Positions 76-45,973 of a stretch of 46,344 nt of DNA are shown piece after piece (the stretch's first letter is position 1; each line of letters opens with the position of its first letter). The position numbers were made by a program, and so were the translations under genes. The stretch spans positions 1-46,344 of the IMG/VR virus record IMGVR_UViG_3300035019_000001. One strand, 5' to 3'. Below the pieces are notes generated by a model. That model searched no databases and was not told the DNA's origin. It saw nothing but the letters and a program-made list of their open reading frames with translations. This stretch comes from a virus.

Positions 76-160
76 GCTTTAACGATTGCCCCATCGCTAG
101 AACAGTTGACGATACGTTTAATTTTTCGGCGTTGCATAATGGAGAGATGAATAAGGTGAT

Positions 161-337
161 TCTCTGCAGTGCCCGGAATGCCAGTCTACTCACATTCGGA
201 AGAATGGAAAACGCAAAGACAAGCAAAATCATATCTGCGTGGACTGTGGGCGACAGTTCATCGATAGCTATGACCCCCCTCAAGGCTACTCGGAGGACGT
301 CAAACGAGAATGCTTGCTGATGTACACGTACATTTAA
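161..337 (+). pseudogene. IS1-family transposase, N-terminal remnant
   Basis: The frame starting at 161 encodes a zinc-ribbon N-terminus of IS1-type transposases: CPEC near the start, a basic KNGKRK segment, then CVDCGRQF and a GYSEDVKRECL stretch. There is no start codon in frame (a TAA lies just upstream) and the catalytic C-terminal DDE part is missing. The reading frame ends in TAA at 335-337, just after it runs into a transposon-end sequence. It sits between the tracrRNA and the CRISPR array, where intact V-K CASTs have no transposase. It is therefore an insertion that was later cut down, probably by a deletion that also removed part of the array. Confidence 0.75.
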
Positions 338-351
338 TGTGCGAATGTACA
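321..351. mobile_element. Orphan CAST end fragment fused to a half repeat
   Basis: ACATTTAATGTGCGAA followed by TGTACA (346-351) repeats the terminal sequence found at the true transposon end (1158-1179). Here only one TnsB-type site remains, and the outer TGTACA abuts position 17 of a CRISPR repeat (352). A second TGTACA at 321-326 may belong to the IS1 coding sequence. The arrangement looks like the tip of another CAST copy that landed in the first repeat and later lost its interior. Confidence 0.55.
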
Positions 352-697
352 CAGACATGGGTGGGCTGAAAGGGCAATTCGTCCTGTTCGCCATCCCTCA
401 TCGATTGCGTTGCAATCGCCTTCCCAGACATGGGTGGGCTGAAAGATGCCTTCACGAAGACATTTCTCTTTTAGCTCAGTGTTGCAATCGCCTTCCCAGA
501 CATGGGTGGGCTGAAAGACTCCATAGCGAAAGTCGTTTTTGTCGTTGCTGAGTTGCAATCGCCTTCCCAGACATGGGTGGGCTGAAAGTTTACTGCGCGA
601 TCGCGTTTCAACTATAAAACCTACGTTGCAATCGCCTTCCCAGACATGGGTGGGCTGAAAGATTTCAAGGCTGCGTTCATAATATCTATTCAGGAAA
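352..697 (+). CRISPR. Short type V-K-like CRISPR array, first repeat truncated
   Basis: Four complete, identical 37-base repeats lie at 409-445, 481-517, 552-588 and 625-661. Each starts GTTGCAATCGCC and ends CATGGGTGGGCTGAAAG. A 21-base 3' half repeat lies at 352-372. Spacers are 373-408 (36), 446-480 (35), 518-551 (34) and 589-624 (36); a last spacer probably begins at 662. The GGGTGGGYTGAAAG 3' end is the form seen in Cas12k (V-K) repeats and sets the orientation to plus. Spacer 589-624 contains a HIP1-like core (GCGATCGC), so it probably came from cyanobacterial or cyanophage DNA. No spacer was seen to match the rest of this window. There are no adaptation genes here. Confidence 0.88.
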
Positions 698-744: not shown

Positions 745-800
745 GTTGCTCCAGCTACTGTAAATGGGGAGGACTGAAAGGCGCATCTTAATGGCATGAT
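745..800 (+). ncRNA. Delocalised CAST guide: atypical repeat plus tRNA-Ala-matching spacer
   Basis: A degenerate repeat (745-780) keeps GTTGC at its 5' end and GGACTGAAAG at its 3' end but differs in the middle from the array repeats. It is followed by the spacer GCGCATCTTAATGGCAT (781-797). The tRNA-Ala gene reads GCGCATCTCAATGGCAT, so 16 of 17 bases match, and the three bases 5' of the protospacer in the intact tRNA are GTA, which fits the GTN PAM of Cas12k. Separate guides of this type, with about 17 matching bases to a tRNA gene, are how V-K CASTs home to chromosomal sites. The protospacer is 45936-45952 (minus strand), with a second copy at 1217-1233. Confidence 0.82.
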
Positions 801-1010: not shown

Positions 1011-1179
1011 CGACATTAATGTGCGAACCGTGAGATTAACGACAAATGCGACATTAATGTGTGAATAGCAAGAATCTATTGATTAACGACATTAATGTGC
1101 GAAACTACAGCCGAAACGCCAAAAATCGTCGAAAACGACATTAATTTGCGAATCGCGACATTTAATGTGCGAATGTACA
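1011..1179. mobile_element. CAST transposon end with five TnsB-type binding repeats
   Basis: Five copies of CGACATTAATGTGCGAA or close variants lie in direct orientation at 1011-1027, 1049-1065, 1087-1103, 1136-1152 and 1156-1173. The last is followed by the terminal TGTACA (1174-1179). Read inward from the end, the motif is TTCGCANNTTAATGTCG, the type of repeated TnsB site seen at ends of V-K CASTs. As it lies on the CRISPR side, it corresponds to the right end. The DNA from 801 to 1010 between guide and end shows no gene. Target DNA (tRNA-Ala 3' fragment) begins directly at 1180. Confidence 0.85.
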
Positions 1180-1248
1180 TATGGAGCTAAGCGGATTCGA
1201 ACCGCTGACCCTCTCAATGCCATTGAGATGCGCCTCTCAATCATGCCT
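1180..1248 (-). repeat. attL: tRNA-Ala 3' fragment with an internal deletion
   Basis: Positions 1180-1233 are identical to 45899-45952, which hold the 3' three quarters of tRNA-Ala(GGC): anticodon arm, variable loop, T arm, acceptor 3' strand. Homology then resumes at 1234-1248 with the DNA that lies upstream of the tRNA 5' end at the right side (CAATCATGCC). This copy therefore lacks about 27 bases (acceptor 5' strand and D arm) and cannot form a tRNA. It lies between the CAST end and the phage integrase gene, and marks the left boundary of the phage. Confidence 0.8.
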
Positions 1249-1297: not shown

Positions 1298-1314
1298 TTG
1301 CATAGAGTTGCATA
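1298..1314. promoter_or_regulatory. Putative integrase arm-type site, left
   Basis: TTGCATAGAGTTGCATA contains two TTGCATA units 10 bases apart. A 17-base copy with one mismatch lies near the other end of the element (45760-45776). Paired short repeats at both ends, just inside the attachment cores, are expected of arm sites bound by the integrase N-terminal domain. The left site overlaps the start region of the integrase gene, so it could also control that gene. Confidence 0.5.
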
Positions 1315-1319
1315 AAGAA

Positions 1320-2390
1320 ATGAAGCCTTTAATCGTCAGAAAGAATTCTAATAGTTGCATTATCAGGTGGAACTATGATAATGATTCTTATTCTCTTACA
1401 TGGGGTAAATACTCTGACCCTTCTGATAGAGCTAAGCTTGAATTAGCAGGTAAGTTAATCTACCAGGATTGCTTAACTAACAACTTTGATACTTCTCTCA
1501 ATAAATATAAATGCTGGCTATTAGGGATTGTTCCAGACGTTAATAGTTACTCTAAAGTTAAGTGCCCCTCACTAATCACACTTTTAGAAGAACGTCTAGA
1601 GAATCTATACAGTAGTGCTGATCAATCAGTTCTGAATTTATTAAAGCAGTATAAAATCTCTGTTGATAATCCCTGTAAAGCTAAAGACTTTCTAAAGTGG
1701 ATTCAGAATAGAGGAGTAGCTACATCCACTCAGAAACGCTATCTAGCCGTTCTACAAGTAGTTAGAAAAGATTTATTCGGTCATCTGAAGGTTAAATTAG
1801 AAGGTAAACCTAGACCTAGACCCCTTACTATTGAACAAGTACATAGATTTATAGCTGAATTAGAACGATCTCCTAACTACTGCCATTATGTAGACTTCTT
1901 TCTGTTTTTATTTAATTCTGGACTCAGGATTAATGAAGCTATAGGTCTTAGATGGCAAGACGTTGATTTAGATAATAGAGAGATTCAAGTTTATCAATCT
2001 CTAATAAGAAATAGAGGTAAAATCTCAACTCGAATTAGAAAAACCACTAAAACTTCAAAGCATAGAGTAGTTCCCATCAATAATAAAGTATGTGACATTC
2101 TTACTAATAGAAAGTCTAAGGATTCAAAAGGCTCAGACCTAATATTCTTATCTCATAAAGGTAAACCAATTGATGACCATACTCTAAGTCAAAGATGCTG
2201 GAGAATAACTTTAGAGAAGTCAGATATTCCACATCGACCTATGAGAGTAACTAGAAGTACTTTTGTTAGTCATTGTGCTGCTTCTGGAATGGAGCCTGCT
2301 AATATTGCTCAGATTACAGGTCACGATGTAAAGATTCTATATGAGAATTATTTAGGGGCAATCAATAAACCCATTCTACCTGAACTATAA
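1320..2390 (+). CDS. int: Tyrosine-type site-specific integrase
   Basis: Recombinase of the phage, expected to join attP to the tRNA-Ala gene. Numbered from the ATG at 1320 (356 residues), the C-terminal catalytic domain shows the first arginine in SGLRINEAIGLR (R203), a lysine-rich beta-hairpin before HRVVPI, RVTRSTF (R312, with Arg in the place of the usual His), GHDVK (H335) and the nucleophile in YENYL (Y344). The N-terminal part has an arm-binding-like region and a SAM-like core-binding domain. A TTG at 1308 would give four more residues but lies inside the putative arm site, so ATG is preferred. The gene is next to attL, the usual place for a phage integrase. Confidence 0.9.
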   Translation: MKPLIVRKNSNSCIIRWNYDNDSYSLTWGKYSDPSDRAKLELAGKLIYQDCLTNNFDTSLNKYKCWLLGIVPDVNSYSKVKCPSLITLLEERLENLYSSADQSVLNLLKQYKISVDNPCKAKDFLKWIQNRGVATSTQKRYLAVLQVVRKDLFGHLKVKLEGKPRPRPLTIEQVHRFIAELERSPNYCHYVDFFLFLFNSGLRINEAIGLRWQDVDLDNREIQVYQSLIRNRGKISTRIRKTTKTSKHRVVPINNKVCDILTNRKSKDSKGSDLIFLSHKGKPIDDHTLSQRCWRITLEKSDIPHRPMRVTRSTFVSHCAASGMEPANIAQITGHDVKILYENYLGAINKPILPEL

Positions 2391-36670: not shown

Positions 36671-38428
36671 TTAAACAGTAAGGCTATCATCAACAAATGA
36701 ATGGATTAGTGAATTAGATGAGCTTGGAAAACTTTTAATTACTGATAATGCTTTTGACTCCAGATCTTTTGCTTCATCAAATCGTTTAATTAGCTCATTA
36801 ATAATGCGGGGATCTGTAGTGAAGAGTCCTGCTTCACGCTCTTTGGAACTGTCACCTGATGTTAGAAAATTATGGCTCCCAACAACGGCAAACTTGCGAT
36901 CACAGACTATATATTTTTCATGAGTTCCGATAATTTTAAGTTTAAGGTAGTCACCCTCTAAATCTCTCAGATAATCAATAGCATCGTATAAGTTAGAATG
37001 TTTTTTGAGCCTTTGCCATAGCTCTCCTACTCCATACCGAACTGAGTTCTTGCTAATATCGTTTAAATGGCCCCACCCAATATTGATATTAATTTCTTTC
37101 TTCAATTTAGCTTCAATCTTCTCTTCTATAGTGCTGTCAATAGAGTATGTTGCAAGCCAAGGACAAACCATAATCAACCGCTCCCCAACTTCATCAAGAG
37201 CTTTCTCCAAATATTTCCGACTTTCAGAGCGATCGCACACCAATTTATACTCGTAATTAGGTTGAATATTTTTGAGCATCTGGTTTACAGCACTCAGATG
37301 AGTTTCCAGACTTTCATCCACCTGCCCTTGAAATCGTTCAGAAAACTCTTTCAAAAGGCTTTCAAAATCAGTTGAATTATCTTTACTTGAAGCTAAAATT
37401 TCTAGCTGATTCTGCATTTGTTCAAGCGGTCGAGTCTCATCATGAAGATCCTGATAGCTATGATCTAGGTCTGTCAAATGCTCCTCTAACTGCTTAACGT
37501 GCCCCCTCAGAGTATCTAACTGTTTTTGAACATTCAATTTTGGGCGGTTTTCAACTTTGTTAGCCAAAGCAACGACCTGCTCTTTCACAGCAGACAACTC
37601 ATCTAGGGAGATTGCTGACTGTTGCCACAATAAAAACTCATCTTTAGTAAGGGAAGTTTGAAGTTTGTTCTTTAAGGAAATTACTACCCTGTCAATCTCC
37701 TCAATCTTCCTCTGAATGGTTACTACTTCTGAAGCTACAACCTTCTTCTGCCATGAAGCAAAATCTTTTATAGTCAAATAATCCTGAAGTTGATGCTCCA
37801 GACTAGCAATATTCTCAACCTGCTCACTTGTAACACTCTCCTTTTGAGATTCCACAAGTTGTTGTAGAGATTGCACTTGAGTTCTCAATGTATCAATGTC
37901 TTGCTGAACTGGCACTGGATTAAAAGGAGTTGGAGTAGGGAGAGGCTGCTGAACTTGAGTAACCTTTTCAAAGAGACTAGCTAGGTCGAGAGAATGCATA
38001 ACGCCAAGACCCTCTGAAAGGCGTTCGATTTTTCTCTCAACTTCAGTTAAATCTGATGGAGTAGGAGGAAGTTTATTAATGTGATCGCTGACGTGAGAGA
38101 GCTTGTGCTGTAGCTGCCCTATTTGCTCCTGAATACTTGCTGCATCTGAGAGCTTCAGATACACGTCAGGGATAAGGGTGCTTTGTTCAATAGCTGTAAT
38201 CCTTTGAGTAACCTGCTCTTGAACTTGACGAGTACTAACTGCAATGTGGCGAGCAGTTGCTTCTTCCATACGATGACGGTTCTTCTGACTCAACCATATA
38301 AATACTGCTAGGAGAGGTACACAAAGCACCTGTTGGTATAGTAATCCTGCAAATGCTCCTGCTAATGAACCATACTCTGCAACTTCAAACCAACGTAGAT
38401 ATTTTCGATTTGAGTTAGAGAGGGTCAT
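36671..38428 (-). CDS. Membrane-anchored coiled-coil protein with PLD-type nuclease domain
   Basis: 585 residues. Residues 18-45 have a hydrophobic segment (GSLAGAFAGLLYQQVLCVPLL). About 50-385 are long coiled coils. From about 395 a PLD-like domain follows: a first strand-helix with CPWLATYS, and HEKYIVCD at 503-510, an HxKxxxxD motif, then VGSHNFLTSGD. Only one HKD motif is present, so a dimer would be needed for a full site. Such anchored coiled-coil PLD proteins may act in defence or membrane remodelling; the nuclease role is an inference. Confidence 0.75.
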   Translation of the reverse strand: MTLSNSNRKYLRWFEVAEYGSLAGAFAGLLYQQVLCVPLLAVFIWLSQKNRHRMEEATARHIAVSTRQVQEQVTQRITAIEQSTLIPDVYLKLSDAASIQEQIGQLQHKLSHVSDHINKLPPTPSDLTEVERKIERLSEGLGVMHSLDLASLFEKVTQVQQPLPTPTPFNPVPVQQDIDTLRTQVQSLQQLVESQKESVTSEQVENIASLEHQLQDYLTIKDFASWQKKVVASEVVTIQRKIEEIDRVVISLKNKLQTSLTKDEFLLWQQSAISLDELSAVKEQVVALANKVENRPKLNVQKQLDTLRGHVKQLEEHLTDLDHSYQDLHDETRPLEQMQNQLEILASSKDNSTDFESLLKEFSERFQGQVDESLETHLSAVNQMLKNIQPNYEYKLVCDRSESRKYLEKALDEVGERLIMVCPWLATYSIDSTIEEKIEAKLKKEININIGWGHLNDISKNSVRYGVGELWQRLKKHSNLYDAIDYLRDLEGDYLKLKIIGTHEKYIVCDRKFAVVGSHNFLTSGDSSKEREAGLFTTDPRIINELIKRFDEAKDLESKALSVIKSFPSSSNSLIHSFVDDSLTV

Positions 38429-41444: not shown

Positions 41445-42644
41445 ATGATTAGCAGACCATTTGACTCAATCGGTAAAGATGACATTGAGAGCTTGATTTC
41501 TAATAATATTCCTGAGAGTAGGACATTAGAGTACAAGGAAGCTTTGCCCGGAAATGCTGATGATGACAAGCGTGAGTTTTTAGCTGATGTTTCATCGTTT
41601 GCTAATGCTTCAGGAGGCACTCTGATTTATGGAGTTCGTGAGCAGAGAGATGGGAGCGGTAAAACAACTGGGTTTCCTGAATCGATTGTTGGTTTGGGTA
41701 ATATCAACATTGATGCTGAGAAGCTGCGATTAGAGAGCATCCTTCAAGCTGGTATTTCTCGTCGCATTATTGGGCTACAAATCAAAGCAATTGATGGTTT
41801 CTCCTCTGGAGAGGTGCTACTTATCCAGGTTCCGCCAAGTTGGAACTCACCTCATATGGTGACATTCAAGAATTGGTCACGGTTCTTCTCTCGAAACAGT
41901 GCAGGAAAGTATCAGTTAGATGTAGATGAATTACGTAATGCCTTTATTGCATCAGAGTCACTAGGAGAGCAGATTCGGCAATTCCGAGTTGATCGTGTTG
42001 CAAAGCTTATTGAAGGTGAAGGCCCAACTAAACTCTTGCCAGGTGCAAAATTTATGTTGCACCTTATTCCAGTTGCAACGTTTGGTTCATCAGAGCAAGT
42101 TGATGTTCGCGCTGTCTTTAGGGCAAATAATCTTTACTCTCCTGGAGAAGTTACGAGAAGGGATAGGCGATTTAATTTGGATGGTGTCCTAAGTTTTGTT
42201 GATAACTACACACGGGATAATGAGTCATATTCTTACGCTCAGCTCTTTCGCAATGGAGCGATTGAAGCTGCTTGCTCTCTTATGAAGGGGGATGATACGC
42301 ACGTAATTGAAAAAGATTATGAACTTAAGGTTCTTAAAAGTTTAGATAAGTACCTTCACTTACTGCAAGAGCTGTCAATTAATTCCCCGATCATCATTTC
42401 TCTTACCATGATTGGAGTAAAGGGCTACAAAGTAGGCCGCTCAATATTTGATGCTTCTCCTTACACAGCAAGGATAATTGATCGAGACGTACTAATCATT
42501 CCTGAAATCAGTTTAGAAGAGTATGGCGTTGTTCTAGAAAATGCTATGCGACCATCTTTTGATGCAGTTTGGCAAGCATCAGGGGGTGAAGGCAGTCCAA
42601 ATTATGACCAAGCAGGAAAGTGGATAGGTTCGCTAGATACTTAG
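41445..42644 (+). CDS. AlbA_2/Schlafen-like domain protein
   Basis: 399 residues. The N-terminal 170 residues show the AlbA_2 pattern: SRTLEYKEALPG, REFLADVSSFANASGGTLI, YGVRE, then SGEVLLIQVPPSWNSPH and RFFSRNSAGKYQLD. The C-terminal half is unrecognised. AlbA_2 proteins act as nucleic-acid-binding or putative RNase/ATP-binding modules and are common in defence islands. Defence is suggested by domain and company. Confidence 0.75.
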   Translation: MISRPFDSIGKDDIESLISNNIPESRTLEYKEALPGNADDDKREFLADVSSFANASGGTLIYGVREQRDGSGKTTGFPESIVGLGNINIDAEKLRLESILQAGISRRIIGLQIKAIDGFSSGEVLLIQVPPSWNSPHMVTFKNWSRFFSRNSAGKYQLDVDELRNAFIASESLGEQIRQFRVDRVAKLIEGEGPTKLLPGAKFMLHLIPVATFGSSEQVDVRAVFRANNLYSPGEVTRRDRRFNLDGVLSFVDNYTRDNESYSYAQLFRNGAIEAACSLMKGDDTHVIEKDYELKVLKSLDKYLHLLQELSINSPIIISLTMIGVKGYKVGRSIFDASPYTARIIDRDVLIIPEISLEEYGVVLENAMRPSFDAVWQASGGEGSPNYDQAGKWIGSLDT

Positions 42645-45478: not shown

Positions 45479-45507
45479 CCACATTCTACACCCTTACTTT
45501 TTGTATT

Positions 45508-45541
45508 ATTCCTGTAGTAGATAAATTACAGGAATATTTTT
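45508..45541 (+). terminator. Terminator touching the next start codon
   Basis: ATTCCTGTA/TACAGGAAT 9-bp perfect stem followed by ATTTTT and directly by the ATG at 45542. Confidence 0.75.
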
Positions 45542-45691
45542 ATGTCTAAGCTAACTTTTGAACAGAAACGTACGTTACTCAGAATGATGATCATTGCTCC
45601 AGAAATTGTAGATACCACTTTTATTGTTGGTATTTATTTATGGATTGCCATCAGTTTAATTCCTTCATTACTTTTGCTTATGCTTTTGTAA
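45542..45691 (+). CDS. 49-residue membrane protein
   Basis: MSKLTFEQKRTLLRMM then two hydrophobic stretches (about 17-32 and 33-49, ending PSLLLLMLL). AGGA 8-12 bases upstream lies in the 3' arm of the terminator, so hairpin formation would hide the ribosome site. Short and near the element's right end. Function unknown. Confidence 0.5.
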   Translation: MSKLTFEQKRTLLRMMIIAPEIVDTTFIVGIYLWIAISLIPSLLLLMLL

Positions 45692-45726
45692 TTATTAATT
45701 TAATTTACCTAATAACTCTCTAATTG

Positions 45727-45761
45727 AAAAACCTCCTTAAATTCTATAGGGAGGTTTTTTT
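45727..45761 (+). terminator. Terminator at the right end of the element
   Basis: AACCTCC/GGGAGGTT-type stem with a 12-base loop and seven T. It shields the tRNA region from transcription out of the phage. Confidence 0.85.
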
Positions 45762-45776
45762 GCATATAGTTGCATA
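45760..45776. promoter_or_regulatory. Putative integrase arm-type site, right
   Basis: TTGCATATAGTTGCATA, one mismatch from the left copy at 1298-1314, same orientation. Confidence 0.5.
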
Positions 45777-45898
45777 TAATATAGAGACTTTCCTAAATAG
45801 AGTATTCCTTTTTTTAGCGCTAAATGCGGCATGACTGAGAGGTGTAAGGGGCTATAGCGCAGTTGTTAGAGCCCCCTGATATAGCAATGTTTTCAACC

Positions 45899-45952
45899 TA
45901 TGGAGCTAAGCGGATTCGAACCGCTGACCCTCTCAATGCCATTGAGATGCGC
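45899..45952. repeat. attR core (direct repeat with 1180-1233)
   Basis: 54 identical bases shared with attL; they cover the tRNA-Ala 3' end through the anticodon arm. Together with 1180-1233 they bound the phage of about 44.7 kb. Confidence 0.85.
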
Positions 45953-45973
45953 TACCAACTGCGCTATAGCCCC
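45901..45973 (-). tRNA. tRNA-Ala (anticodon GGC)
   Basis: 73 bases. Acceptor stem GGGGCTA/TAGCTCC has the G3-U70 wobble that identifies alanine tRNAs. D arm GCGC/GCGC, anticodon arm TCTCA/TGAGA with loop ATGGCAT (GGC), T arm AGCGG/CCGCT with TTCGAAT. The discriminator is A and CCA is not encoded. It is the host gene restored by phage integration and the target of the CAST guide. Confidence 0.95.

Follow-up and report, generated by a model that had tools for sequence, protein, structure and literature searches.

Positions 768-797 of the window, the 46,344-nt stretch analysed here and the whole of contig G000:C23 in a 5.97 Mb draft genome, are predicted to form a delocalised ("anchor") guide belonging to a type V-K CRISPR-associated transposon (CAST), a reading supported by their sequence. 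The account as a whole, in which this segment is a V-K homing crRNA, the CAST arrived at a tRNA-Ala gene first and a myovirus-type prophage entered the same gene later, is very probably correct, and it is built on observed sequence elements, their geometry, the uniqueness of the spacer match and the duplication at attL and attR. Delocalised, or anchor, crRNAs of type V-K CASTs were reportedly described by Saito in 2021. Cyanobacterial relatives are known both for the prophage of the window and for the CASTs of the genome. The features on which the argument draws are as follows.

1-127, no strand: contig-edge sequence, nature unassigned, 83% identity to C66:686-812
128-327, plus strand: putative IS1-like element, truncated, first 200 bp (start of insA)
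328-351, minus strand: stray CAST terminus TGTACATTCGCACATTAAATGTAC, 24 bp, abutting a broken CRISPR repeat
352-661, plus strand: CRISPR array, one truncated repeat (352-372) and four full repeats
409-445, 481-517, 552-588 and 625-661, plus strand: the full array repeats, 37 nt each
768-780, plus strand: R*, the truncated repeat GGAGGACTGAAAG, conserved part of 13 nt
781-797, plus strand: anchor (homing) spacer GCGCATCTTAATGGCAT, 17 nt, directly after R*
1013-1179, minus strand: CAST left end, terminus TGTACA at 1174-1179
1013-1027, 1051-1065, 1089-1103, 1138-1152 and 1156-1173, minus strand: TnsB-type repeats of the left end
1182-1233, minus strand: attL, displaced 3' part of tRNA-Ala, with protospacer 1217-1233 and PAM slot GAG
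about 1234-45900, no strand: contractile-tailed, myovirus-type prophage with structural genes
1308-2390, plus strand: tyrosine integrase of the prophage (phrog_1 integrase, E=1.4e-39)
45901-45973, minus strand: attR, intact tRNA-Ala(GGC), with protospacer 45936-45952 and PAM GTA at 45953-45955
G000:C19:2129-23011, on another contig: second V-K CAST

The guide and its match to tRNA-Ala

The CRISPR array starts just 350 nt from the left edge of the contig, and R* stands apart from it, 107 nt beyond the last full repeat. The same 13-mer occurs in the second CAST of the genome, on C19, whereas the array has GGTGGGCTGAAAG instead. The initial annotation had placed a guide at 745-800; this holds for R* and spacer at 768-797, while the upstream portion, 745-767, is weakly repeat-like. 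When recomputed at both copies of the protospacer, in the intact tRNA-Ala(GGC) and in the displaced 3' piece, the spacer agrees with GCGCATCTCAATGGCAT at 16 of 17 positions with the mismatch at position 9, exactly as the annotation had it, and the GTA PAM that it ascribed to the intact tRNA is read at 45953-45955; beside the displaced copy the slot holds GAG. In a scan of the window allowing up to four mismatches, the two tRNA copies were the sole matches to the spacer, and across the genome they were the only sites within one mismatch, the next-best sites having at least two differences from the degenerate pattern. Equally good matches at many tRNA genes, a possibility raised at the outset, are thus absent, tRNA-Ala(GGC) being the sole match.

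In known V-K anchor crRNAs (PMC9938897, PMC11406308) a 13-nt truncated repeat and a 17-nt spacer lie between the array and the left end, target a tRNA with a GTN PAM and keep a spacing of 46-82 nt. The window fits this description of a delocalised guide in its array, R*, spacer, PAM, left-end repeats, distance and orientation; from the PAM slot (1234) to the CAST left end (1179) is 54 nt, against a published PAM-to-left-end range of 46-82 nt for such guides (PMC9938897). What sets it apart is its target, tRNA-Ala(GGC), now split from the PAM by a prophage. The left end itself has 77% identity to that of the C19 CAST.

Comparison with guides of other V-K CASTs, which had been proposed as a check, drew on 60 cyanobacterial V-K loci of the same class, each represented by the sequence downstream of its cas12k; in 50 of them a tRNA faces the element. 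With an anchor defined as a 17-mer directly after GAAAG with at most two mismatches to the tRNA, GTN not being demanded, 46 of the 50 proved to have one in the identical layout, and GTN preceded the protospacer in 46 of 46; a reversed-tRNA control on the same 50 loci gave one match. Mismatches numbered none in 31 anchors, one in 14 and two in 1. The window's guide is therefore typical, since 46 of 50 loci are alike and about a third of anchors have one mismatch. Among those 46 anchors tRNA-Ala(GGC) is absent as a target, their tRNA-Ala guides matching other tRNA-Ala sequences. The guide did not recur in an exact-pattern search of 84,980 species, nor in 42 genomes of the order when three mismatches were allowed. 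As to the array, the 5' half of its repeat has no second occurrence in the genome, and its spacers have no target in the prophage of the window, the best having 6 or more mismatches in 24.

CAST genes elsewhere and the present state of the guide

Genes for cas12k and tnsB-tnsC-tniQ lie on C11, C19 and C85, unlinked to the array of the window, which stops near the contig edge; no intact Cas12k copy linked to the guide was found. Joining of the array to C11, C19 or C85 was rejected, as no common junction was found. In the cas12k frame on C19, codon 19 of the match is a TAG; C11 holds an N-terminal piece at the contig end next to tnsB, tnsC and tniQ, and C85 holds a C-terminal piece. The C11 region (G000:C11:1-31200) combines its CAST core with a large defence-like cargo (DruE-like helicase, MkoB-like, UvrD-like helicase and PD-T4-1-like). 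On C19 the anchor spacer GAGCGCCTGCCTTACAA exactly matches a tRNA-Val-type sequence on C48 preceded by GTA, and despite this spacer no tRNA lies beside the C19 CAST. The right end of the window's CAST was not found in the genome. Another contig has a CAST right end (G000:C51:24568) placed 8 bp off the 3' terminus of a tRNA-Thr(CGT) gene, where a left end is expected; it was rejected as the partner of the window's left end, since the flanks differ.

Debris of mobile elements lies at the left edge of the window. The fragment at 128-327 has 98-100% identity to many contig ends and 81% to a copy on C111, and its assignment as IS1-like, which rests on our reading of its reading frame, is a probable one. 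The stray terminus at 328-351 separates it from a CRISPR repeat that is broken at CAGAC, as if the end of a second CAST had landed within the array of the first.

Because this contig carries neither a tracrRNA nor a cas12k of the CAST, C19 has a TAG in its cas12k frame and only part of the gene is present on each of C11 and C85, the guide may be a relic of a dead CAST that lost both genes through an IS-linked rearrangement, with nothing acting now. This reading, which falls only a little short of an even chance, differs from the preferred account solely in present activity. The abutment of the IS1-like fragment and stray CAST end on the broken first repeat speaks for it, as do the damaged or partial look of the genome's Cas12k genes and the absence of a tracrRNA from the 350 nt upstream of the array, its place in the C19 element. 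Yet the contig ends there, and the body of the CAST may lie beyond the insertion. R* and spacer are moreover intact, and R* pairs perfectly with the C19 tracrRNA, so that use of the guide in trans would be possible.

A prophage in the same tRNA gene and the order of insertion

The tRNA-Ala targeted by the guide is also the gene used by the phage, as had been proposed, attL and attR both lying within it. They share a 54-bp identity that ends exactly at 1233, the first base of the protospacer, and 44.7 kb separate the 3' piece on the CAST side from the intact tRNA and its GTA PAM. Integrase, structural genes and tRNA duplication together identify a tRNA-integrated prophage, and its gene content includes terminase, portal, major head protein, tail sheath, tape measure, baseplate, tail fibre and lysis functions. 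With tRNA-integrating prophages that use a tyrosine integrase it has in common the integrase at attL, the 54-bp 3' tRNA duplication and the rebuilt tRNA at attR; unlike these prophages generally, it sits at an attachment site that a CAST also occupies, and the CAST is left outside the prophage. Prophage DNA from 2000 to 26000 had no near match among phage records and the integrase no relative among viral contigs, while the portal has distant matches only, the best being Leptolyngbya phage Lbo402-yong5 and Microcystis phage Mic1. Two further genes carry a Schlafen/AlbA_2 domain (41445-42644) and a PLD-like domain (36671-38428), and on the prophage side of attR, at 45813-45872, there is an inverted copy (93%) of the 5' half of tRNA-Ala with its upstream flank.

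In related genomes several integrated elements also cut tRNA-Ala in this region. The genomes G017, G019, G020 and G021 have displaced 3' pieces, starting with CTCAATGGCATTGAG or a close variant, at distances of 9-40 kb from the intact gene. The intact tRNA-Ala of G020 is followed by a CAST-like end, and in G021 this is so for the intact copy as well as the displaced one. Based on these displaced pieces and CAST-like ends, tRNA-Ala is a shared hot spot. Additionally, an element of about 210 bp (L099; G021:C141, about 8.3-8.6 kb), bounded by TGTACAGTG and CACTGTACA, lies after a displaced tRNA-Ala 3' piece and looks like a miniature CAST-end element.

If transcribed and active, the guide would act with tracrRNA and Cas12k, its spacer pairing with tRNA-Ala(GGC) next to the GTA PAM and directing the Tn7-like transposase to insert the CAST about 54 nt downstream, just beyond the 3' end of the tRNA. 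The prophage would later have entered the same tRNA by means of its tyrosine integrase, putting 44.7 kb between the 5' half and the 3' piece with its adjoining CAST and removing the PAM from beside the CAST, while the intact tRNA rebuilt at its far end would again be an open homing target. CAST first and phage second is the simplest and, we infer, the most likely order. It is suggested by the GAG in the PAM slot beside the CAST, whereas all natural anchors found use GTN, by the spacing of 2 nt between the CAST end and the 3' terminus of the displaced piece, which is what insertion next to a then-intact tRNA would give, and by the fact that, with the phage present, the sole site with protospacer and GTN is on the far side of the prophage and lacks a CAST end. 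The reverse order, in which the phage came first and the CAST homed later onto the displaced piece, is improbable: the protospacer is indeed intact in that piece (1217-1233), but its GAG contrasts with GTN in 46 of 46 natural anchors, and a guided CAST would choose the intact tRNA with GTA, near which no CAST end was found at 45480-45900. That there is no guide at all, the similarity being due to chance or to a tRNA copy captured by some other process, is extremely improbable in spite of the one mismatch and a spacer of just 17 nt, given that about 0.04 matches with at most one mismatch are expected genome-wide by our estimate, before position, PAM and strand are considered, that the genome scan rejects it, that the match follows directly after R* on the right strand near a CAST end abutting the same tRNA, and that the layout recurs in 46 of 50 loci.

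Pairing of R* with tracrRNA regions

The R* 8-mer GGAGGACT is complementary at 8 of 8 positions to AGTCCTCC in the C19 tracrRNA region, and the 15-mer context of AGTCCTCC occurs exactly once in the genome. With the tracrRNA defined by position, as the interval from cas12k to the array, and not by RNA mapping, 26 of 47 V-K elements (L135-L194 and C19) have an R* whose 8 nt ahead of GAAAG pair perfectly with a site in the tracrRNA region, against none of 39 for the array repeats, which differ from R* usually at position 3. When R* was permuted between elements, perfect pairings averaged 3.0 and reached a maximum of 11 in 5000 permutations, compared with the 26 observed, although this figure is no clean probability because V-K elements are related. 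There are eleven distinct forms of R*, each matching its own tracrRNA region. No statement of this pairing was found in the open papers searched, the Hsieh and Peters 2021 preprint, the likeliest place for one, being outside the search.

It is tentatively proposed, at a likelihood somewhat below even, that in V-K systems R* rather than the array repeat is the true, covarying partner of the tracrRNA, that homing would be favoured because R* pairs perfectly whereas the repeats of the array are always mismatched at one position or more, and that an integrating prophage may reopen the homing site and allow stacking of CAST and phage. The guide itself is a further example of a known strategy; the phage that splits its target from the PAM is an instructive extra, two ordered insertions at one tRNA illustrating how a prophage can part a CAST from its PAM and restore the site of attachment. 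This phage-split target is worth keeping in view together with the pairing of R* and tracrRNA, from which comes the testable idea that V-K elements may rank homing above the guides of their arrays.
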